Positions 7,687-35,219 of a DNA stretch of 64,000 nucleotides are shown here, piece after piece. The position numbers and the translations under genes are program-made. The DNA comes from Irpex lacteus (Eukaryota; Basidiomycota; Agaricomycetes; Polyporales; Irpicaceae): contig MQVO02000022.1 in the NCBI GenBank assembly GCA_001986395.2, forward strand, positions 310,001 to 374,000, given 5' to 3'. Under the pieces are notes generated by a model that worked only from the letters and a program-made list of their open reading frames with translations, was not told the DNA's origin and made no database searches. Each line of letters begins with the position of its first letter. Positions within the stretch are counted from its first letter, which is position 1.

Positions 7687-7838
7687 TAGAGCGCTGCGAA
7701 GAACTGTCGGGCTTGGATTTTTCACGTTAGTAACGTTATAGACAAATCGCCGTTTGATTTCACACGGTTAATAACCAGTTAATAACCCAATAATAACATT
7801 TATTGTACACATCAGCAATGAACAATCTCTACGATGCA

Positions 7839-8174
7839 CTACAGACTCCAGTCGGATTCTTGTAAGATACGCGGTTGAGAGCTCTTCTTGGGAGCAGCTG
7901 CTACAGGCCGAGCTGGCCTCGAAGGAGCAGTAACAGGCTCATCCGACAGCAGATCACGGAGAGTGTGAGAGTTGAGGTTTGCAATCTCCTCGACAACGAG
8001 CCTGTCGCTAGGTTCTTTATCATACGGACGTTGCTTCCGTGTCTGCGCTGTATCCCAGTCGAATTCTTCGAATTCTGAGTCACTTGCGCGGCCGGGTTCT
8101 TGCACATTGTTTGAGTCACCGCCTTCGCCGCCTGAGTCGGAATCAGAGTCACTCTCCAAACCGCTGGTACCACC
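7839..8174 (-). pseudogene. hAT transposase, 3' fragment of the split gene
   Basis: This is the end of transposase exon 8, read on the minus strand to its stop at 7839-7841. It encodes the acidic, serine-rich C-terminal tail (SDSDSDSGGEGG and onward to ILQESDWSL) and is identical in protein to 34730-35059 of the intact copy. The reading frame runs on into the left terminal repeat of the inner element, which makes a misleading longer frame up to about 8327. Alone it lacks all catalytic parts. Confidence 0.9.
8166..8174. repeat. 9-bp target-site duplication of the inner element, left (GGTACCACC)
   Basis: The 9-mer occurs again at 15564-15572. In the uninterrupted hAT copy (around 34724-34732, other strand) it is present once. 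This pins the insertion point to the base; the CTAG shared by both element ends leaves only a one-base ambiguity in how the ends are named. Confidence 0.92.
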
Positions 8175-8312
8175 TAGGCTCGTCCCCAGCCGCTTTCGGA
8201 TCAGTCGTCCCTCCGTGATGCGTAAGCGGCTGGTACAACTGAACCGTGAAACTCGACCCACCCTCTTAGCGCTGGACCGTGTGAAAACGTACTTAGAATA
8301 ATCGCGCGTTCG
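8175..8312. repeat. Terminal inverted repeat of the inner element, left
   Basis: Starts TAGGCTCG and matches the reverse complement of 15398-15563. The inner 80 bp are best conserved, including CCGTGAAACTCGACCC, AGCGCTGGACCGTGTG and AAAACGTACTTAGA. The outer 50 bp are looser apart from the terminal TAG(G/A)CTCG. Confidence 0.88.
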
Positions 8313-8454
8313 ACGACTGCTTAACAACGTCGTGCTTATACCACATCCTCATCATGTCGTCCTATGCCCTAGTATGTTAATGAAAAGTTGCTTCTATGCT
8401 CATTATAATTGTCTCTGTGCAAAAGCTGTGGCAGAATACATCCAGGTACGTTCT

Positions 8455-11124
8455 CTATTGCATGTGGAATGGGGCAGGAGGATAGTGGTGAGGGTCGGGT
8501 TGGGCCCTGGAAGGGGGTTCACGCCGTGAGGGGTGTGGGACACCTTGCATAAGTGTATACGGAGGGTACTGAGGAGGTGAAAGAGCCTCTTGTGGGTTAC
8601 GGAGTAGATGCGAGGGATATCCGGGCTGGGGTGCTGCCATCGGTTGCCAGTGTGGCGGATCCCTTGGAACTGCACCTTCGACCGCCAGGTGGTGTCTGTT
8701 ATTAGTGATAGTCCCCGTGTATCCCATAGGAGGTGGGTAAGGGCTGTATTGAACAGTGAAATATGGTGGTGGATAGGTCATGGGAGGGTATGTGTTTCTG
8801 TACGCTCCATGCACCTGGCTATTACTTACTTGCACTGGCATCTGACTACGATAGGGATACTCCGTAGGATAATAGTCACCAGTGTACGTATTGGGCAGGT
8901 GTGCTGCGTGTGTGGTGACCGGAGTGCCTCTGAGTAGCTGTTGAGCTGTAGCAGGCGGCGTAGCGAGTCCAGTTATTTCGGGAGCTTGGGGTACGGCAGT
9001 CGGTCGCGACTTCTTTGCCACACGCTCGGCTTCGTTGACGTTGTCCGCAGGGCTACGCTTCGGCTTTCGCGACACCTTCGGCATCGGAGTGAATGTAGCC
9101 TCGACGCCCTCGGTCCGTGCCATTAACTCCTCGCCATACCGGTCCCACCACAACCACGACGACCTCAGCATCCCTTCCACCACCTCTCGCGTCAAAGTGC
9201 CAACGGACGACAAGTTGACGACCTCGTCATCGCTCAGGATAGCTGAAGAGTCAAGCGGGGAACGGCGATGATCACGCTCGAAGACGGTGTCACGCCACTT
9301 CTCCAGGAGGTTGCGCATGGACTCATCAGGAAGGCCTTTTGCCAGGGGCTTGATAGTGGCAGAAGACTTCGTTAAGGGTGCTGGACGTGTGCGCTGCAGG
9401 AGTGCGGGCACACATATGTCGCAGCATGCTACCGTTGAGCCTACTCTCACGGTCAGCACAATTAAGCCTGGCTTGACAACGGTGCTGACTCTTACCTGGA
9501 TCCTGCGCGTTGTCGAAGATCTTCGCCCATAGCTTTCGGCGGCAGGTGACACTCTGGACGAAGGCAAGTAGTCCCTCGTCGTCTGCACAGAGATCAAGTA
9601 CTGGTTGCTGACCTGTGGGGACGTCATCATTACCAGTGCAGCCGCCACGCTTCACTCCGTGAGTGACCGCCCACTCCTTCAACACCGCCTTTTCTTCTGT
9701 TGTGCGCTTTGTTCGCGCTTTCTTTGCTTGTGTTGCCAGAGCTCGCGCGTCATCAGTCGTTAAAGCGATTGCGTAGACGGAAGGTTCAACTAGTAGCACG
9801 GCCAATCCCTCTTGATTGGCCCCACGCGCTGCTCGCCCTGCCCTCTGAATGAAGTTTGACAGTGTTCCTGGGAGCTTCCATTGTACCACCACGCGTATAT
9901 CCGGGACGTTGCATCCCTAGAAGCCGGCATGAACGTTGTGCGGTGATAATCAGTGAGTTGACCACTTACCATTCCGGCAGCCTCCGTGCATATCAGGATG
10001 CGAACATTCCCTTCCCTAAACTCGCTCATAGCCTTCTGACGGTACGGTAGTGAGAGTCGCGCATTATACGGCCGTATGGTAGTGTCATCGAGCTCCGGGT
10101 TCCTCTCTCGGAGAACATCACGTAAGTGCTGTATAATCTCTGCCCCAGTGTCAATGTCATCGACGTAAATCCAGGTCTTCGGTATGTCCTCAATCGAGGA
10201 AACAGTGTCGGGTATGACAAAGTCGAGGTCGGTATACGTGTTCATGGGGTTCTGACACGCGCGAACGACAACAGATATATTGGGTCTGTTGTTGCCAATG
10301 TCGACAAAGCTACTGGTGGTCTTCGAGAAGTGTAGCTTGCTTTGGATGTCCCGGCGAACACGAGCAGTAAGGGTCGCCGAAACAGCGATGACTGAGGTAG
10401 AGGCGGGTAGGAATGCGCGCACATTACCAAGGGTTGCGTACTTCTTGCGGAATTGGGCTCCCCAATGCGATATGCAATGTGCCTCGTCGACAAAGAGAGC
10501 TATTACTCTTCGCGTAAATAGCCGGTTACGGAGGAGACGTTCCGTGAAGGAACGAGATTGCATCATCTCGGGTGAGACTAGTATGACTTTGTACTTCCCA
10601 GTAAGTATCTCCTGGGCTATTAATGAGATTATGCCAATGCAATAGCACTGTATTGACGTACCTTGGCTGCCATAGGCGAAAGCGCACCGTTTTTACTATG
10701 AATCGAGATTGCGTCCAGCCCGAATTCGTTTTTGAATGTTTCTACCTGTACGTTACAACTTGTAAATATTGTGATTGATTTACTAAACGATTTCCAGACG
10801 TACCATCTCCTCTGCGAGTTGAATAAGAGGAGTTGCGATGAGCGTCACTCCGTCTTTTATCCAAGTATGGGGGCCAGCCGCAATAGTAGTCTTGCCCGCA
10901 CCAGTCGAAGCGTGCACTACCATATCGGTGCCTTCGATCTGAGCCTTGATAGCTTCAAGCTGGAAGTCATAGGGCTCGCGACCGTATGCTTTACGTAGCC
11001 TGTCTTTCAAGTCTTCAGTCTCCTCAGGGGTCAGCTGCTTCCGTTCGCGCACAGAGCCGGATTGGTTTCGAGATCCCCAGCCTGAACTTTTTCGAGTTTT
11101 AGCCTTGCTACGAGGGACTTTCAT
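8455..11124 (-). CDS. RecQ-like superfamily 2 DNA helicase of the inner element
   Basis: Five exons (11124-10804, 10745-10662, 10611-9970, 9916-9496, 9443-8455) join in frame to 818 residues. Helicase motifs in order are STGAGKTT (motif I, about residue 72), DEAHCISHWG (motif II, about 173), AVSATLT (motif III, about 207), ICTEAAGMG(C) (motif V region) and QRAGRAARG (motif VI, about 373). The DEAH(C) followed by ISHWG is diagnostic of RecQ. A cysteine cluster spanning the exon 4/5 join (CRRKLW and ACCDIC) resembles the RecQ zinc-binding module. The last 180 residues are proline/tyrosine-rich and unrelated to cellular RecQ; no HRDC domain is visible. The expected role is ATP-driven 3'-5' unwinding, here presumably for moving or copying the element. 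The gene appears intact. Confidence 0.88.
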
Positions 11125-11326
11125 AATGAATGAAGGAGGGAAGAGGACTGGGAGAGATGTACACTGTAGGTGTCTGGGTCAGGGATATACGTAGCTCTGT
11201 TTACCCCAAGCCCAAACAGCGGAAGTAAATATACATGACAATTTTCAAGCAAAATCTAGAGTACGATCAGCACCACTGTGACTTCACATATGTACCCTCT
11301 CCCCTCACGCCAACTATCATTTCCGC
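11125..11326. promoter_or_regulatory. Divergent promoter region of the inner element
   Basis: The 202 bp between the two start codons are all the non-coding DNA between the helicase and the DUF6589 gene, so both promoters must lie here. No individual box is clear enough to name. Confidence 0.5.
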
Positions 11327-14300
11327 ATGGCTCAACTCCCGTGGCCTATGAACAGCAGCAATCTGTTAAATCCAAGGTTAGTTGACCACTCGATATCAGA
11401 CCGAGCGAGGAATGGGCGCTTACCAATAAATGACTTACCGTGGCCGTTTTCAGTACACCACCGCGAACCCGTACTGGACGGCTTGAATATCCTGATACAA
11501 GCCATGATAATAAGTCCCCAGAACTCGAAAGCGATGCTAATAAGTCCCCAGGACTTGCGAGCGACACTTCATATGAGCGAAGTTCACCTATAGCGGGTAC
11601 CGCCAAGCAGCAAGCGATAATACGTTCGCAGAGGACTCGGAAGCTCAAAATGGCAACTATCTATGAAGAGAGACGGGAGCGAAACACATGGAGATTAGAA
11701 AACGCAGACGTACCAGGCTTAGATGAGTATATTGGTGAACCGGCCGAGCCTGAGATCGAAGACAATTCAAAGGCCCGTGAACGAGTCTTCTCGGCAATCT
11801 TAGACCAGCTTGCTGTTGCTGAACTCACTTGGGGAGATCTCGTAGAGTGGATATCCGATCCCAACTCGTCATGCCCAGCGGAGAACCGTTACAACGGTTT
11901 CTTTGCAGCCAAAGATCAGGTTAAACGGGTTCTTGGCCATTGGTCCTCATGGAAGAACTGTGGTTCAGGACAGGCTCTACTTCGTGACTGGACTTTGGCC
12001 TTTGTTAGCCGTCGTATCACCAAAGAAGGCAACAAAGTGACGAAGAGCAAGCTATTACAGTCACGCACCATGGCTATTGACCGCGCTTTTGTCTTGAAGT
12101 TCGATATCGTGCGGTTGTACGAAGAACTTCGCGAGCTATGCCCTACCACACTTCAGCTGTTCCACGCGCTATGCACAACACGAAAGCAGGAGAGGAAGAT
12201 GAAGGATAGTTCAAAAATGACATTGCGAAAGCAGCTGGTAAGTATTCCGTTCACGTTTCTATACTTGCTTATCACTCACCGGCAAATATTGTAGCGCGTG
12301 GCGACAGCTGCGCTTATCCTCCTAGGCGAGCGTAGCCAGCAAAACAGCTATTTCAAACACGTAATAACCCTGTACCTATATGCAACAGGAGCATCACGCC
12401 AGGCTATTAGTGTACTGGCGCACCTTGGTGTTGGCAGCAGCTATACGACGATTGCGGCCAGCAATAATGAGCCTAAGGTGGACAGCGAGCCTCAGCCGAA
12501 GCTACACAGTGAAGCGACACTCACCTCCGAGTCTACACCCTCATCGAGTGCTATTCTCAGTCGACAAAATAACGAAGCTGCACTTACGACTCGAATGGAA
12601 CACGACAACACGGAACATACGGATTGCGTTGGGGTAGACGAAGAACTTCAAGACTCAGAGTCATCGGACAGCTCTGCCTCGTCAGAAGAGTCTGACAGTG
12701 ACTCAGACTTTGATAATGTCGATGGGTCTGACTCTGACTCGTCCGAGTCAGCTTTGAAACTCGATGAGTGTATAGGTCACGGTGATCATGATGGAGATCA
12801 GCGAGAGAGAACTGATGCAGTATACACTGAGGTGAGATTCTGATATTGTCTACGCTGTGAACGACTCACTTACTGTTATACAATGTCGTTATCTTGCAGG
12901 TGCCAGAGCGCGAAAGCGTTGCAGTTGAGGGTTTTGAAGCAAACCACCGGCGGCAGCGCTAGTGAAACTCTTGCAGATCCAGAGTCGAAGTCCCAGGGTT
13001 CTACACCCAAACGCCGCACCTATACAGGCTTACTGTCACGTCTATCCCAATCTTGCCGCCAAGAAACTCGGAAGGTTGCTCAGGATAATCCAGTTGCTCA
13101 TGTTTACGACAACATCAATTGGCTTCAAAAGGTGGCAGAGGCTATACTGGGGCGCTCGCAAACACAGGAAAACGGCACCTGCGCAACCGTGTTCCCTCTC
13201 TTTGGAGCAGATCCAGACGACTTGCTAACGAAGGATCTTCTGGCGTCGATTGACAAAGCCCCCCCTCTGACACTCGACGATATCATTCTCTCACCCGAGG
13301 AACAGGATATGCAACGTAAGTGTATGATACATGCAGTCCTACGTATCCTCGTCAAGTATGGTGGCGAGCACTACAGTCGCTTCAAGAACGATGTTGAAGA
13401 GAGTACACCGCGCACAGAAGATCAGATTGAATTGCACAAGACCGATGTCTACCCCCTTCCGACCATGAACATCAACGAGTCCTCCATCACCGGGAATGCA
13501 GAAGTCATGGAGACGATCTTCACCGAACTTGGCAATGATATTGAAAGCTCAGAATTTCAGGACACCATCCGTATCGTATGTGGAGACCAGCTCTCAGTCG
13601 CTAATCTACGTTCTGTCACGCTAAGCCGTGTAGGGAACGATTCACCATCACAAAGCTTCCCCAACATTGTCACCATCCCCGGCCTCTTCCATGCTCAGAT
13701 TCACAGCATCTCCAGTCTCCTAGAAGCACACTGGGGAAGCGCAGAAGGTGCACAAGATCCCGGATCCCTTCACTCACATAATACCATGCTCTCCCGAAAA
13801 CCGATTGTACTCTCTGCGCTTCCTCCGTACCGGACTTGTCGGGATCTCGTCTTTGTCTCTCTGTACGCTCGAGTCCTCCGCTGCCTTGAGCTCGTTTCCG
13901 GATGCGACTCACTTGATGAATATCCCCAAACGGTAACGTTCACTCAGCTGTACCAACATGCAGCTGAAATCGTCGATCGATACGCAAACGCCCAAGTAGC
14001 GATGAAGCTGCGCAGGGCACGGACAGCTGAAGAACGGAAAGCACAAGACAAGCGGACCCCTCAGGGCGATGTCGTATTCGAGAACGCTGTCCTCTTTATG
14101 CGCGATGCGCTGCTCATTCGTGAGTTTACTGATGCTATCAAGGCCGGCGACTCGGGAAGACTGGAGATCAGTCTCAAGACGTTCACGCTCAGCTACCGTG
14201 GTGGAGGCCGCACAAAATATGCCCATGAGATGTTGCATATACGCCACAATCTGGCCCACATCTGGCCCAAGCCACTAAGGTACGTACTATTACCTTTTTT

Positions 14301-15127
14301 GTAATTCTAGTTCTACGACGCATCAACTCACGCTACGGCTCTGTACGATTAGGAAGATCGTGCTTGACAATTGGGTCGCGAATCCGACAGGTTTCAAAGA
14401 TTCCTATGTGCCGCTCGACTTACTTCAGGAGCACATGAATTTCTGGATTAAGGTGAGCTGTCAATTCCCATGCACCGGATAGACCTCCGACTCTTACACC
14501 TGTGGCGCAACACCTACTCTACAGACCATATACAATGCAAATGGAAGCAATGCGTCGTGGGAATGGCTGGAGAAAATATCTCCATGTATAGACGTTCTAC
14601 GGCGTCTCGCGGACCACATGAACAGTACGTTAGGCTCGAAACTTGGCCAGAAGCACCATGCCCCCCGACCTCAGCAAAGATATTCGCAAGTTGCTCGACT
14701 CCCTACGTGAGAAGGCGGTCTATGAATTCAAGATAGGGCGTACCGTTGATCAAGCAAACGCCGAAGTCACCAACGTGGTTACAGCTGGCCTCCAAGCACT
14801 ACCGGGCCCGCTGCGGGAGTACAACGAGCGGTTCGAACAGCTCCGTAAGAAGTACAGGCAAAAACCGTTGATAGGTGAAGGTAAGTAAATCTATGTCCTT
14901 GCTCGCAGTAATGCCACTAACCGTCAGATTCCGAATCAGCACTTCTTGGCCCAGCAAACAGCCAGCCGGGAAGCTCGGGCCTCGAGCCCATTCCAGTCGT
15001 GCAGCCGAATAACAAGCATGACGACGATGACGACCTATGGGCGGCGATCGACGACATAGGGACTATGACAACAGATGTCCCATTCACTCTCGAGAGCGGA
15101 GACAACTACCCGCTCGGCATGGACTAG
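11327..15127 (+). pseudogene. DUF6589-family protein of the inner element (one apparent frameshift)
   Basis: Exons 11327-11376, 11454-12237, 12295-12831, 12907-14279, 14353-14452, 14525-14880 and 14928-15127 give about 1,132 residues. All junctions keep frame except for one extra base inside exon 6, in the six-C run at 14661-14666, where the reading must move by one base. The middle has an acidic serine/aspartate stretch (about residues 400-450). The C-terminal part shows VCGDQLSV, GLFHAQIH, YRGGGRTKYAHEMLH, LDNWVANPTG, LLQEHMNFW and NASWEWLEKISPC, which I recognise from memory as DUF6589, a family much expanded in agaricomycetes. The invariant acidic positions (GDQ; LLQEH) would suit an RNase H-type transposase, but that is inference. 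The extra C may be a real inactivating change, a sequencing slip, or a recoding site. Confidence 0.75.
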
Positions 15128-15397
15128 TAAGCAAGCTTTTATATCGTGAGTACACTCATTATGGGCCCAACTTCGTTGCACTTACGCAGTAAAATAGCAG
15201 TCACCGACTACAGCCTTCGGCTAAGCCTGTTGACCTTGCGAGCCGGATAGGCTAGTGGGCCAGCACGCGTATATCATAACTCATTTAATATATATATATT
15301 GTAGCTGGCTTATGTATCTACCTATCTCTATAAACAAACTTCTCGTTTTGATGAGCGGATGGTGGGATATTCAACGTCGACGCCTCAGGCCTACTCA

Positions 15398-15563
15398 CGA
15401 ACGCACGATTTTTCTAAGTACGTTTTCACACGGTCCAGCGCTTCGAGGGAGGGTCGAGTTTCACGGCTCAGTTTTACCAGTCCGCTCGCAAGCTCGCGCC
15501 TCCCTTTGATGTCTTTGATGGAGGCACGTGGGAGCTTGCGATCGGATCTGGCTGGCGAGTCTA
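15398..15563. repeat. Terminal inverted repeat of the inner element, right
   Basis: Ends CGAGTCTA. It is about 28 bp longer than the left repeat because it carries an extra hairpin-forming block at about 15487-15540, whose arms share CGCAAGCTC and CCTCC. Confidence 0.88.
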
Positions 15564-15572
15564 GGTACCACC
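15564..15572. repeat. 9-bp target-site duplication of the inner element, right (GGTACCACC)
   Basis: Second copy of the 9-mer at 8166-8174, directly followed by resumed hAT sequence (CAGAATCTGAGC). Confidence 0.92.
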
Positions 15573-18500
15573 AGCAGAATCTGAGCCCGCGGTGTCGTTT
15601 TCGCTGGCAGAAGCATTGGCCGAATTCGAGGATTTCTTGTTATTGGTCTTGCGGCGGATGGTCGAGTTGAGGTCACGGAATCGTACAGTCGGCCGTCTTG
15701 CAGCACGGGTACTCTGAATGCAGAGTCGTAAATGAGTTCGCTTTCAGGTGTGAGGGTAAGTATTTTACTAACCAATGACTGCATCTTCTTGTACTGTCGG
15801 ACTTGAGCCATGCGAACAAGAGTTGACACCTTCTGTGATCCACGCAGATGAGAGTTTTGCCATGTGAAGTAGGATGCCGTTCGCTCATCACTCATGGAAT
15901 TCGGAGTGACACCGAAGATCCCGGTCATGAGTTGCTGTGGGAGAAAGCGTGTTGGTACGCATCGTTTTCGGATAGTAATACAGAGATGCACTTACTGCGA
16001 TTGGCTGAGTCCTGTGAGAACGATCACAGTTTAAAGCTTCCCACCATTCGCGTGGCCCTTCGTCGCCTATGACAGGCCGGTTGAAAGGAGCTTCACCTCG
16101 ATAATACTGACCAAACTGCTCCTTTAACAGATCCAATGCTTCGTCTGCTCTGAGGTTGCATATCGGCACTTTGCGTTCTTCATACTCGGTCCGCAGGAGC
16201 GAAACCAAGAAGTTTCCGGCTCGCTTGACCAACTTCGGGTACTCGTTTGTTGACGATGGCGCAAGTCGTTGGCCGTTCAGCCGGATTGGTGGTATAGCCA
16301 ATGGGTTCGCACTGTGTTGACGAAGGATGTCGGAGTTTCTGAACCCTACACAGCGAGATGTGAGTTCAGCAAACATAAACTAAGGGAGGCAGCTCACGAG
16401 GGTCAAGAACAAATCCTGTGAGGTATACGTCCTTGGACGGCTGCCCTTTCTCCTGTTTTCCTGACTCCGGCTCCATCATCTGCTTCCATCGGTAGTTGGC
16501 GATACGGCGGATTTCGTCGCGAACACTATTTGGCATCGGAGTATTGGGATCTGTGATGACATCTTTAATTGCTGACAGCATAGCAAGCCAAAACACGTAG
16601 ACATCAGAGACAGAAGAGTGAGTGGACTCGAGACATGTTGTTGCTTTTGCAGCAGGTCCCAAGATTGCCAGTAGTTCGTCAAGCTGCGTGCTGAACTTAG
16701 CACTTGCAAACCCGTCTGTGAAGTTATCATGAAAGGCCTGCAGTGTGCTTGGCGTAAGTTACCTCTCTCGCAGCTAGATGTGACTTCGTACCTTAAGCTT
16801 CACAGCCTTGCTGTTGCATAGCGCCTTGATCGCAGGCATGCAAGTGCGAAGCGAACGGCCAGAAAGATATACGGTCGAGAAACGGGTCTTTCCAAATGAG
16901 GTGAGTCCACGCTTGATCTTCATATCTCGACGTTTCGCTTGCAAACGCGCGTTTGCATAGGATGACTTCTTGAAGAATTTGACGGTCGCGCGAGCGCAAT
17001 CAATAGTCTTTCCGTAAAGTGGCATCAATAATCTGTCAGAACCTGGAGCTACTCACGTACCAGCTTGAAATAAGGTAACTTGCCGATGTCCTTCATGAAC
17101 AGTTGGATGTGATGCGGGGCGTCGATAAGATTCAGAATCCATGGATAACGGGCTGCTATAAGGCTCCTCGCTAGGCGTGTATTGCCCGTGTTGTCCGACA
17201 CAATCGCTCGAAACTTGCCTGGGCCAATTTCGACAAGAACCTTGGCAAAGGTGCGTTACCGTCTGTCTCGGAAGGAAGAGAAGTACTTACGATATGCAAG
17301 ACTTCATAAAGCTTTTCACCTGTGTGAGATTCTGATGAAGACTCATGACCCTCCCATAGGAACACCCGACGGTCAGCCATCGTGATATGGATGGTGTAGA
17401 CGGAATCAACCTTGCGGGTGGTACCACCATCAAATGATAAGGTGAAGCCTTCATTTCGTGAATCTCGCAACAGCTTTCTGATCTCCTCACGCACACGACC
17501 GGCTTCTTGTGGAAGAAGAGAGGTGACCAGTGATGTGCTGCTGGGGGGTGTGTAGGTGGGATCAGCATCACGCCACAAAGCTTTCCACTCGGGACTGTCA
17601 GCCTTGGATGGAGCCATCCCTCCCGCAACGATGAAGTCGATAATATTGCTGTGGTGCTTCAGATGTCGTATCTCGCGGCCTGCCTTGTGCCATCTTGTCT
17701 CCGCCTTGAGTTGTGCCGCGGATTTCGGTGCGGTAAGTTTAGCATTGCTCTCCAGTATCACAGGTTCGTCATCCGAGTCCGAACTGATGTGTGCCTGTGC
17801 TTGCCGAATCTTCTCCCGTGCTTCAGCAGCCTGCTTTGTATACTTATCGAGCCGTTTGTTGACAGACTTCGAAGCAAGCTCCTCGTTGGCCCGTGCTACA
17901 AGCTCTGGGGGAAGGTATCCGCAATTTGCAGCGTGCAAAAGAACTCGGTTGCTCTGTCGGTGACCAGTCCAGTACACACCGCAGCCCTTCTCAGCAGCTA
18001 TACAGCGCCAATGCTCCTTGCCCACATCCTTCTCATCGGGGTCTTTCAGGATCACGTAGCGCGACAACTCGTCAAGAAGAGGCAGCGCTTTCTGTCCACC
18101 ATTACCCTTCGGGCCAGGACGCTCTGCATCGATATAACGACTCATGATCTCCTTGATGCAAAGGGCGGTGGCCTTCTTTGCCTTCTTCGCAGTAGGTGTC
18201 TGTTGTTGCTCCTCGGAGGCGGTGATGTCTGGTTCTGTCACGGTATGTGTTCGCTTTCGACCCTTCTTCTTCTTCTGCTGCTCAGGATCCATCTGTAGCT
18301 GTACTGCCCCCTTCCGGAGAACATCCCATGCCGAAGCTGAACCCTGCTGCGCCTATAAACAGAGTCATCATCTCGTCAGACTCAATAGAATGATAGCCGC
18401 AGCAATATTGATAAAGGGCTTCGCTCGAGGTGCGTAACATACCACATTAGTCTCATTGTCTCGCTGTCCCCCAGCCGCTTCAGCTGCTTCCGTTAGATCG

Positions 18501-18832
18501 TCAACCCATTTCATCAGGAGTGCAGACTCCGATGGATAAAGGGTCAAATACTTCTCTAGGGTAAATGTCAGGTCTACAAGGCCAGGACCTTGCTCTTCAA
18601 ATCTGATAGGATTCCCCTCGGTACGACCTTGCGGACAGAATGTAACTTCCAAGGTGCGATTTAATGCTGCCACTTTTGTTCCGTAGAGATCAACATCGTC
18701 TTCGCTAGGTGAAAACCCTGTAAAATAATAATGGGCCTGACCGACCGGAATAGAAGCCGGGAGCGATGATAGAAGAGATGCGAGGGCTCTGAGCTTCGCC
18801 TGAACGTCTTGCGAAAGCTCTCTTGTATCCAT
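15573..18832 (-). pseudogene. hAT transposase, 5' and central part of the split gene
   Basis: From the ATG at 18832 this copy contains exons 1 to 7 and the start of exon 8, with the same introns and the same protein sequence as the intact gene at 31464-35059. It is cut at 15572 by the inner element, just inside the acidic tail (after AGSDSAGG). BED-like finger, RNase H core and dimerisation region are all still present, so a truncated protein ending in element-derived residues could in principle be made from this locus. Confidence 0.9.
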
Positions 18833-19174
18833 GACAAGCTCGGTGAGGGCAGCAAATGCTGGGTCGACGGTCGAAAATTAGGTGACTCGGACAAGTGAAG
18901 TCGAACAGCGCGCCGCCGGCTGATTTGTAGAACTCCCTTACTTCACTAGCAATGTTTGTTATCAGACTTAAGTTAATTTAATAGTTGTAAGCACGCTATC
19001 GTAGGTGCTACTAGGTACAATAATTTCGACGAACACGTGTGTTTTGCGATCAACGGCGGTCAGGCGCTTATCGAGTTAATAACCCGACTATCCTGGGCTC
19101 TCGAGTCTTTCACCGTTACTAACGTGAGTTATTAACGTTAGGTTAGTAACTCGGCAGTTCTTCGCAGCGCTCTA
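18833..19174. repeat. Subterminal region of the interrupted hAT copy (5' end)
   Basis: Non-coding DNA between the transposase start and the right terminal repeat. It contains the same GTTAATAAC/GTTATTAAC-type motifs (for example GAGTTAATAACCCGAC near 19073) found at both ends of the intact copy. Such repeated subterminal motifs usually bind transposase in hAT elements. Confidence 0.6.
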
Positions 19175-31121: not shown

Positions 31122-34100
31122 TAGAGCGCTGCGAAGAACTACCGAGTTACTAACCTAACGTTAATAACTCACGTTAGTAACGGTGAAAGACTCGAGAGCC
31201 CAGGATAGTCGGGTTATTAACTCGATAAGCGCCTGACCGCCGTTGATCGCAAAACACACGTGTTCGTCGAAATTATTGTACCTAGTAGCACCTACGATAG
31301 CGTGCTTACAACTATTAAATTAACTTAAGTCTGATAACAAACATTGCTAGTGAAGTAAGGGAGTTCTACAAATCAGCCGGCGGCGCGCTGTTCGACTTCA
31401 CTTGTCCGAGTCACCTAATTTTCGACCGTCGACCCAGCATTTGCTGCCCTCACCGAGCTTGTCATGGATACAAGAGAGCTTTCGCAAGACGTTCAGGCGA
31501 AGCTCAGAGCCCTCGCATCTCTTCTATCATCGCTCCCGGCTTCTATTCCGGTCGGTCAGGCCCATTATTATTTTACAGGGTTTTCACCTAGCGAAGACGA
31601 TGTTGATCTCTACGGAACAAAAGTGGCAGCATTAAATCGCACCTTGGAAGTTACATTCTGTCCGCAAGGTCGTACCGAGGGGAATCCTATCAGATTTGAA
31701 GAGCAAGGTCCTGGCCTTGTAGACCTGACATTTACCCTAGAGAAGTATTTGACCCTTTATCCATCGGAGTCTGCACTCCTGATGAAATGGGTTGACGATC
31801 TAACGGAAGCAGCTGAAGCGGCTGGGGGACAGCGAGACAATGAGACTAATGTGGTATGTTACGCACCTCGAGCGAAGCCCTTTATCAATATTGCTGCGGC
31901 TATCATTCTATTGAGTCTGACGAGATGATGACTCTGTTTATAGGCGCAGCAGGGTTCAGCTTCGGCATGGGATGTTCTCCGGAAGGGGGCAGTACAGCTA
32001 CAGATGGATCCTGAGCAGCAGAAGAAGAAGAAGGGTCGAAAGCGAACACATACCGTGACAGAACCAGACATCACCGCCTCCGAGGAGCAACAACAGACAC
32101 CTACTGCGAAGAAGGCAAAGAAGGCCACCGCCCTTTGCATCAAGGAGATCATGAGTCGTTATATCGATGCAGAGCGTCCTGGCCCGAAGGGTAATGGTGG
32201 ACAGAAAGCGCTGCCTCTTCTTGACGAGTTGTCGCGCTACGTGATCCTGAAAGACCCCGATGAGAAGGATGTGGGCAAGGAGCATTGGCGCTGTATAGCT
32301 GCTGAGAAGGGCTGCGGTGTGTACTGGACTGGTCACCGACAGAGCAACCGAGTTCTTTTGCACGCTGCAAATTGCGGATACCTTCCCCCAGAGCTTGTAG
32401 CACGGGCCAACGAGGAGCTTGCTTCGAAGTCTGTCAACAAACGGCTCGATAAGTATACAAAGCAGGCTGCTGAAGCACGGGAGAAGATTCGGCAAGCACA
32501 GGCACACATCAGTTCGGACTCGGATGACGAACCTGTGATACTGGAGAGCAATGCTAAACTTACCGCACCGAAATCCGCGGCACAACTCAAGGCGGAGACA
32601 AGATGGCACAAGGCAGGCCGCGAGATACGACATCTGAAGCACCACAGCAATATTATCGACTTCATCGTTGCGGGAGGGATGGCTCCATCCAAGGCTGACA
32701 GTCCCGAGTGGAAAGCTTTGTGGCGTGATGCTGATCCCACCTACACACCCCCCAGCAGCACATCACTGGTCACCTCTCTTCTTCCACAAGAAGCCGGTCG
32801 TGTGCGTGAGGAGATCAGAAAGCTGTTGCGAGATTCACGAAATGAAGGCTTCACCTTATCATTTGATGGTGGTACCACCCGCAAGGTTGATTCCGTCTAC
32901 ACCATCCATATCACGATGGCTGACCGTCGGGTGTTCCTATGGGAGGGTCATGAGTCTTCATCAGAATCTCACACAGGTGAAAAGCTTTATGAAGTCTTGC
33001 ATATCGTAAGTACTTCTCTTCCTTCCGAGACAGACGGTAACGCACCTTTGCCAAGGTTCTTGTCGAAATTGGCCCAGGCAAGTTTCGAGCGATTGTGTCG
33101 GACAACACGGGCAATACACGCCTAGCGAGGAGCCTTATAGCAGCCCGTTATCCATGGATTCTGAATCTTATCGACGCCCCGCATCACATCCAACTGTTCA
33201 TGAAGGACATCGGCAAGTTACCTTATTTCAAGCTGGTACGTGAGTAGCTCCAGGTTCTGACAGATTATTGATGCCACTTTACGGAAAGACTATTGATTGC
33301 GCTCGCGCGACCGTCAAATTCTTCAAGAAGTCATCCTATGCAAACGCGCGTTTGCAAGCGAAACGTCGAGATATGAAGATCAAGCGTGGACTCACCTCAT
33401 TTGGAAAGACCCGTTTCTCGACCGTATATCTTTCTGGCCGTTCGCTTCGCACTTGCATGCCTGCGATCAAGGCGCTATGCAACAGCAAGGCTGTGAAGCT
33501 TAAGGTACGAAGTCACATCTAGCTGCGAGAGAGGTAACTTACGCCAAGCACACTGCAGGCCTTTCATGATAACTTCACAGACGGGTTTGCAAGTGCTAAG
33601 TTCAGCACGCAGCTTGACGAACTACTGGCAATCTTGGGACCTGCTGCAAAAGCAACAACATGTCTCGAGTCCACTCACTCTTCTGTCTCTGATGTCTACG
33701 TGTTTTGGCTTGCTATGCTGTCAGCAATTAAAGATGTCATCACAGATCCCAATACTCCGATGCCAAATAGTGTTCGCGACGAAATCCGCCGTATCGCCAA
33801 CTACCGATGGAAGCAGATGATGGAGCCGGAGTCAGGAAAACAGGAGAAAGGGCAGCCGTCCAAGGACGTATACCTCACAGGATTTGTTCTTGACCCTCGT
33901 GAGCTGCCTCCCTTAGTTTATGTTTGCTGAACTCACATCTCGCTGTGTAGGGTTCAGAAACTCCGACATCCTTCGTCAACACAGTGCGAACCCATTGGCT
34001 ATACCACCAATCCGGCTGAACGGCCAACGACTTGCGCCATCGTCAACAAACGAGTACCCGAAGTTGGTCAAGCGAGCCGGAAACTTCTTGGTTTCGCTCC

Positions 34101-35211
34101 TGCGGACCGAGTATGAAGAACGCAAAGTGCCGATATGCAACCTCAGAGCAGACGAAGCATTGGATCTGTTAAAGGAGCAGTTTGGTCAGTATTATCGAGG
34201 TGAAGCTCCTTTCAACCGGCCTGTCATAGGCGACGAAGGGCCACGCGAATGGTGGGAAGCTTTAAACTGTGATCGTTCTCACAGGACTCAGCCAATCGCA
34301 GTAAGTGCATCTCTGTATTACTATCCGAAAACGATGCGTACCAACACGCTTTCTCCCACAGCAACTCATGACCGGGATCTTCGGTGTCACTCCGAATTCC
34401 ATGAGTGATGAGCGAACGGCATCCTACTTCACATGGCAAAACTCTCATCTGCGTGGATCACAGAAGGTGTCAACTCTTGTTCGCATGGCTCAAGTCCGAC
34501 AGTACAAGAAGATGCAGTCATTGGTTAGTAAAATACTTACCCTCACACCTGAAAGCGAACTCATTTACGACTCTGCATTCAGAGTACCCGTGCTGCAAGA
34601 CGGCCGACTGTACGATTCCGTGACCTCAACTCGACCATCCGCCGCAAGACCAATAACAAGAAATCCTCGAATTCGGCCAATGCTTCTGCCAGCGAAAACG
34701 ACACCGCGGGCTCAGATTCTGCTGGTGGTACCAGCGGTTTGGAGAGTGACTCTGATTCCGACTCAGGCGGCGAAGGCGGTGACTCAAACAATGTGCAAGA
34801 ACCCGGCCGCGCAAGTGACTCAGAATTCGAAGAATTCGACTGGGATACAGCGCAGACACGGAAGCAACGTCCGTATGATAAAGAACCTAGCGACAGGCTC
34901 GTTGTCGAGGAGATTGCAAACCTCAACTCTCACACTCTCCGTGATCTGCTGTCGGATGAGCCTGTTACTGCTCCTTCGAGGCCAGCTCGGCCTGTAGCAG
35001 CTGCTCCCAAGAAGAGCTCTCAACCGCGTATCTTACAAGAATCCGACTGGAGTCTGTAGTGCATCGTAGAGATTGTTCATTGCTGATGTGTACAATAAAT
35101 GTTATTATTGGGTTATTAACTGGTTATTAACCGTGTGAAATCAAACGGCGATTTGTCTATAACGTTACTAACGTGAAAAATCCAAGCCCGACAGTTCTTC
35201 GCAGCGCTCTA
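31122..35211 (+). mobile_element. hAT-superfamily DNA transposon, intact copy (4,090 bp)
   Basis: Both terminal repeats (TAGAGCGCTGCGAAGAACT, 31122-31140 and 35193-35211) are perfect over 19 bp. The flanks carry a perfect 8-bp duplication, ATGCATGT (31114-31121 and 35212-35219). The single gene inside encodes an unbroken transposase. With the near-identical second copy 12 kb away in opposite orientation, this is a strong candidate for an autonomous, recently active element. Confidence 0.96.
31464..35059 (+). CDS. hAT transposase, apparently intact, 1,058 residues
   Basis: Eight exons (31464-31853, 31944-33005, 33056-33235, 33289-33504, 33559-33898, 33951-34300, 34362-34523, 34583-35059) join with every phase matching. 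Domains in order: a helical N-terminal region of about 130 residues; a lysine-rich linker; a BED-like zinc finger (about residues 235-275: HWRCIAAEKGCG then LLHAANCG); the RNase H-like core with LSFDGGTTR, SDNTGNTRLAR and DAPHHIQLFMKDIGKL; FVLDPRFRN; and the hAT dimerisation region (SDERTASYFTWQNSHLR, about 860-890). The last 155 residues are acidic and serine-rich. The enzyme excises and reinserts the element by binding its terminal and subterminal repeats. About 340 bp of 5' and 150 bp of 3' non-coding DNA lie inside the element. Confidence 0.92.
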
Positions 35212-35219
35212 ATGCATGT
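35212..35219. repeat. hAT target-site duplication, right (ATGCATGT)
   Basis: Matches 31114-31121 perfectly. Confidence 0.95.

Follow-up and report, generated by a model that had tools for sequence, protein, structure and literature searches.

The window analysed here is a stretch of 64,000 nucleotides of Irpex lacteus (assembly GCA_001986395.2, contig MQVO02000022.1, positions 310,001 to 374,000), and it was found to contain an inserted element that very likely belongs to the AcademH type of DNA transposons, with a RecQ-like helicase gene followed in divergent orientation by a gene for a DUF6589 protein (Table 1). The DUF6589 protein was found to match PF20231 in Pfam (E 1e-106), and the helicase matched TIGR00614 (recQ_fam, E 2.3e-32) in NCBIfam, followed by the DEAD domain PF00270 (E 2.7e-08) and pieces of Helicase_C in Pfam, its top PDB match being to chains of helicase Q5 (E 3.4e-27). 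Short introns were apparent in the window genes; the first ATG and the 5′ exon limits of the DUF6589 gene were set by eye, and the copy is not claimed to be intact. Among the 15 window open reading frames (ORFs) of at least 100 amino acids, 11 were covered by ten distinct proteins, in which no further family was found above chance in the Pfam scan; the four ORFs outside the scan cross the element ends. The predicted DUF6589 protein was also found to contain a long acidic stretch rich in Ser, Asp and Glu (window 12500-12830, +) between its N-terminal part and the domain.

The element was found to lie between two perfect copies of a 9-bp target-site duplication and to carry the inverted ends TAGGCTCGTCCCCAGCC and TAGACTCGCCAGCC, of the pattern TAG[G/A]CTCG, followed further inside by an inner inverted repeat of 83 nt (92%). 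The 600-bp flanks, joined so as to keep one copy of the duplication, matched window positions 34124-35213 (-) at 100% and without gaps over 1,090 of the 1,200 bp, the match stopping at the edge of the host element into which the insertion had gone. The host was found to contain TAGAG ends and one ORF with a DUF659 match under the Pfam cut-off, each of its two copies having a separate 8-bp duplication (AGCGGAAT and ATGCATGT, respectively), and it looks hAT-like, which is a putative label. Between the copies of the host (7687-8174 with 15573-19174, against 31122-35211), one position in 4,090 was found to differ, and because of this the insertion looks very young; it is younger than the duplication of the host, unless gene conversion made the copies alike. 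The insertion of 7,389 bp, its inverted ends, its duplication, its content of two genes and the empty site in the same window had all been described in the earlier note, and they were confirmed with exact boundaries. Both hAT-like host elements, near-identical within one window, may have been recently active.

The genome (44.3 Mb, 317 contigs) was searched for both genes, the two lists of matches being lower bounds. At least 71 matches of PF20231 were merged by hand into 36 loci, and at least 41 matches of a helicase query of 199 amino acids were merged into 36 places. A helicase match was found within 4.5 kb at 31 of the 36 DUF6589 loci, and a DUF6589 locus within 4.5 kb at 31 of the 36 helicase places; by arithmetic, less than one pairing was expected by chance, with 5 kb on either side of 36 loci covering about 1% of the genome. 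The pairing seen in the window thus holds for most loci of this genome. The divergent orientation named in the earlier note was present in the window but did not hold as a general rule, nine pairs being divergent, 20 convergent and two on the same strand.

In two compact elements, C58 (5,623 bp) and C170 (5,525 bp), the two longest ORFs were found to encode DUF6589 (680 and 695 amino acids) and the helicase (548 and 399 amino acids), followed by an ORF of 364 and 328 amino acids, respectively, which was present on the DUF6589 strand directly upstream of DUF6589 and had no Pfam match. A further ORF (289 and 264 amino acids) encoded the DEAD portion of this helicase. The long ORFs of both elements can thus be assigned to two genes, as judged from ORFs and not from gene models. 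A Mutator-like element (MULE, MuDR) with DUF6589 and the helicase as passengers would agree with the 9-bp duplication and the long terminal inverted repeats (TIRs), both being typical of MULEs, but this pair of genes is shared by 31 loci, and no MULE transposase domain was found by Pfam in the ten window proteins (11 of the 15 ORFs) or in four additional ORFs from C58 and C170. This explanation is extremely improbable and was set aside. A KDZ or Plavaka transposase was not found in the proteins scanned against Pfam either.

The pairs include some loci that appear to be duplicates (C143 and C187; also C20, C185:1163528 and C255:73580). The closest relative found of the window element was C185:687419-694818 (86% overall), and between the two the synonymous divergence (dS) was 0.34 for DUF6589 and 1.76 for the helicase, an unevenness that would fit a mosaic origin from two lineages. 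The element C214:478922-488039 apparently went into another DUF6589 element, one of the C296 type, within the inverted repeat of the latter.

Both ends were read at 14 of the 36 DUF6589 loci, and perfect 9-bp duplications were found at 13 of these 14 elements, in agreement with the duplications of 8 or 9 bp that the earlier note had expected around them. TAG[N]CTCG ends followed by perfect 9-bp duplications were present in 10 of the 11 long DUF6589 regions. In these 11 regions, inverted pairs of TAG[N]CTCG at a spacing of 1-16 kb were found to have identical 9-mers at their ends in 10 of 34 cases, against 0 of 1,360 displaced control pairs. The TIRs were 166-170 bp long and perfect in C58 and C170, and shorter or imperfect in the other elements. 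When TIRs were searched for strictly (14 bp, no more than three mismatches), 6 of the 10 elements were missed, the window element included, since small indels set their two ends apart; the missed elements were recovered by the TAG[N]CTCG scan, which in turn fails for C255:72102-78914, whose ends start with CAGGCTCC. The TAG(G/A)CTCG ends first noticed in the window thus do not hold for every element.

Kolobok elements duplicate TTAA, and TTAA duplications were found at none of the 14 elements read, where 9-bp duplications are present instead. A fungal KolobokH transposon was set aside on this ground and has next to no probability, although KolobokH is described as a DDD/E transposon that encodes a RecQ helicase and occurs only in fungi (PMC9587614), these features, with DUF6589 as a candidate DDD/E transposase, being likenesses to the present elements. 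In the KDZ and Plavaka groups, which are also large DNA transposons with their own transposases, the length of the duplication is different, with 8 bp in Zisupton and Dileera and 2-3 bp in Plavaka (PMC12730594).

Table 1. Features of the window element and its host, and other elements of the genome with their duplications (window positions unless a contig is named)
Feature	Position	Strand	Remarks
Whole element, probable AcademH-type DNA transposon, 7,389 bp	8175..15563	.	bounded by inverted ends and a precise duplication; empty site lies in the window
9-bp target-site duplication, left copy	8166..8174	.	GGTACCACC
9-bp target-site duplication, right copy	15564..15572	.	GGTACCACC
Left terminal inverted repeat	8175..8312	+	tip TAGGCTCG, then subterminal palindrome, then arm 8230-8312 common to other end
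Left subterminal palindrome	8186-8203/8216-8233		
RecQ-like helicase gene, several exons	9326..11124	-	Pfam DEAD/Helicase_C, NCBIfam recQ_fam and PDB RecQ matches; limits approximate
Helicase gene parts	10783-11124; ~9970-10566; 9326-9892		DEAD; central; C-terminal
DUF6589 protein gene, several exons	11650..14640	+	PF20231 and exon model
Proposed first catalytic D codon (Y-D-N-x-N)	13108..13110	+	D in 10/11 aligned elements; putative role
DUF6589 (PF20231) domain	13255..14656	+	two matched stretches, 13255-14292 and 14345-14656
Proposed second catalytic D codon (G-D-[Q/R])	13585..13587	+	11/11; putative role
Proposed catalytic E codon (LLQEH)	14429..14431	+	11/11; putative role
Right terminal inverted repeat	15398..15563	-	tip TAGACTCG, subterminal palindrome, arm 15398-15480
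Right subterminal palindrome	15481-15505/15522-15546		
Putative hAT-like host element with insertion	7687..19174	.	4,090 bp without insertion; duplication AGCGGAAT
Second host copy, without insertion (empty site)	31122..35211	-	
DUF6589 element	C255:72102-78914		9-bp duplication TGGCGCAAT, ends CAGGCTCC
DUF6589 element	C58:142646-150138		9-bp duplication CCTAAATCC
DUF6589 element	C54:1203745-1210511		9-bp duplication GGTCCAGAA
9-bp duplications of further elements	C214; C54; C255; C185		CTTACTGAG; TCCGTTTAC; CGCACTGAT; CACACAAAT
9-bp duplications of further elements	C308; C1; C58; C262; C170		AGCGCCAGT; CACCAGAAC; CGGTGCGAA; ACGTCAGCA; GACGTGGGC
Ends-only element, 1,596 bp			duplication GGTTGTCGC
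Ends-only element, 1,659 bp			duplication GTTCTTCGT
Ends-only element, 119 bp, two contigs	C313:1943927-1944045; C17:1481-1599		duplication TAATTACTG and complement

In an alignment of 11 divergent DUF6589 proteins, a Y-D-N-x-N motif was found to contain the D in 10 of the 11. All 11 contain G-D-[Q/R], then an H further on, and also the E of LLQEH; GDQ and LLQEH are the acidic sites named in the earlier note. The identity to the window protein went down to 26% in an alignment of seven proteins, and the catalytic triad chosen here is one that we infer, because further acidic columns of that alignment (e.g. D322, D353 and E406) were also invariant. The ratio of nonsynonymous to synonymous substitution (dN/dS) was found to be 0.04-0.07 in DUF6589 and helicase alike for three out of four computable pairs (DUF6589/helicase: window-C185, 0.051/0.061; C214-C255, 0.072/0.042; C1-C262, 0.068/0.042), with five of the six values at a dS of 1.6-2.1, near saturation, and these are signs of purifying selection on DUF6589. 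No relatives of DUF6589 were confirmed in viral contigs, prokaryote genomes or plasmids. Because of the conserved D...D...E pattern, DUF6589 is very probably the transposase of these elements, and the 9-bp duplications at 13 of 14 elements, together with the signs of selection, make it the best candidate for that role, as had been proposed.

As a DDD/E transposase with a putative RNase H-like fold and with a triad of the D of Y-D-N-x-N, the D of G-D-Q/R and the E of LLQEH, DUF6589 would bind and cut the element ends and would insert the element into a target whose strands are cut 9 bp apart, the repair of this stagger giving the 9-bp duplication, and the RecQ-family helicase would probably open the ends or the strand-transfer intermediate. 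An accessory protein (e.g. an end-binding one), with the ends cut in trans by another transposase, would fit the indirect nature of the evidence on catalysis and fold, but the same gene pair was kept across families, in which no other shared gene was found, an end motif of related sequence accompanies DUF6589 proteins down to 26-28% identity, as does the 9-bp stagger, and the D-D-E pattern is conserved. On these grounds a passenger or accessory role of DUF6589 was set aside, and the accessory one is very improbable.

The window TIR was found to have matches at 31 places in the genome. Six short elements were examined and were found to contain both ends and no match to DUF6589 or the helicase, and exact 9-bp duplications were present at four of the six; therefore the ends seem to be enough for movement in trans. 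The two 119-bp elements are perhaps one locus, a possible haplotype duplicate in the assembly. Putative nonautonomous Academ elements have been reported from a Marasmius genome (PMC8290104).

Terminal inverted repeats are a feature of the Academ superfamily. The founding paper of its AcademH lineage is reportedly that of Kojima of 2020 (Mob DNA 11:15). Repbase counts Academ among its DDD/E superfamilies (PMC9587614). The AcademH lineage is described with a helicase and duplications of 9 or 10 bp, whereas AcademX, of the same superfamily by the published classification, has a nuclease and duplications of 3 or 4 bp (PMC10045372). In fungi, Academ copies carry the domains PF00270 and recQ_fam (CDD:129701), and annotation often takes these copies for genes of the host (PMC6416283). 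The present elements are like AcademH in the helicase (recQ_fam, PF00270), in the 9-bp duplications, in the inverted ends and in the candidate DDD/E transposase, and no difference was established; the available descriptions of AcademH say nothing of the Pfam name DUF6589, of two gene orders or of subterminal palindromes. In Basidiomycota, Ascomycota and Mucoromycota, AcademH is reported to occur in low copy number (PMC10799480), a level that the 36 DUF6589 loci exceed, if all are of this kind. No mention of Academ or a helicase was found in the available part of PMC9674265.

The elements are accordingly very likely TIR transposons of the AcademH type, with DUF6589 as the DDD/E transposase and the RecQ-family helicase as its regular partner, and the new type of DNA transposon claimed in the earlier note is unsupported, since a helicase, duplications of 9-10 bp and recQ_fam domains are already described for AcademH and fungal Academ (PMC10045372, PMC6416283). 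A new superfamily, in which a DDE-like DUF6589 unrelated to Academ had teamed independently with a RecQ helicase and made 9-bp duplications, would agree with the Pfam label of unknown function, with the absence of DUF6589 from the literature searched and with a likeness to Academ that was drawn from features and not from transposase sequences, but the AcademH features that could be tested (recQ_fam helicase, 9-bp duplication and inverted ends) all fit in the available descriptions, and such a superfamily is improbable.

Several observations weigh against the AcademH assignment and the transposase role of DUF6589. DUF6589 is a putative homologue of the Academ transposase, proposed from features of the elements. 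The ends that were read cover 14 of the 36 DUF6589 loci, five of the 36 loci had no helicase match and five of the 36 helicase places had no DUF6589, and the C296 duplication (CTCCCGTT) was 8 bp long, or 9 bp with one end shifted by one. Two ends-only elements of 931 bp (C277:10748-11678 and C262:30377-31307), which perhaps recombined, had no matching flanks. The proposed first D is N in C308, and its position falls outside the Pfam match, on the upstream side. The young pair C54-C308 was found to have a dN/dS of 0.42 (DUF6589) and 0.15 (helicase), and dS was saturated in five of nine pairs, besides the near-saturation given above. A single-sequence AlphaFold2 model of a 405-residue part of DUF6589, lacking the exon that bears the E, had a predicted local distance difference test (pLDDT) score of 32.8 and was unusable, and no nuclease was found among solved structures by single sequence (weak matches, E 0.3 and 1.8) or by profile (E 0.16 and 0.59).

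Palindromes were sought in the outermost 130 nt of each end, and the best one was found to beat all 40 shuffles of the same end, which preserved base composition only, in 13 of 20 ends of 10 elements, those of the same family not being independent. The palindrome arms were present 11-83 nt inside the tips and vary by family (CCAGCCGCTT...AAGCGGCTGG; CCAGACCCTCATGACA...TGTCATGAGGGTCTGG; CCAGACTCTCACGG...CCGTGAGAGTCTGG), and therefore the pairing is kept while the sequence changes. No palindrome beyond the shuffles was found at either end of C1 or of C262, or at one end each of C214, C255 and C308, that of C308 being a tie. The palindromes may be symmetric binding sites or extruded hairpins, both being candidate readings, and their presence inside the ends may be new. 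It is a speculative and rather doubtful proposal that the transposon's own RecQ helicase opens palindromic ends, so that the DDE-type enzyme would act on partly single-stranded or hairpin ends, unlike in cut-and-paste transposition, and that public fungal DUF6589 genes are transposases of this system.

DUF6589 was not found by name in the literature searched, and PF20231 was found only in an unrelated physics paper; because of this, the identification of DUF6589 as the AcademH transposase may be unpublished under that name, and the protein may well be familiar to specialists by the name that it has in Repbase. What is possibly new is thus the link from the Pfam family DUF6589 to the AcademH transposase, the AcademH kind of transposon being already known from the available descriptions. 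The link provides a likely role for a family that Pfam lists as being of unknown function and that has 36 loci in this genome, and it would explain the abundance of DUF6589 genes and their RecQ-like neighbours; masking DUF6589 and RecQ-like genes of this kind as transposon genes would correct gene counts. The young copy with its exact empty site is a starting point for asking why some DDE-type transposons carry a helicase.

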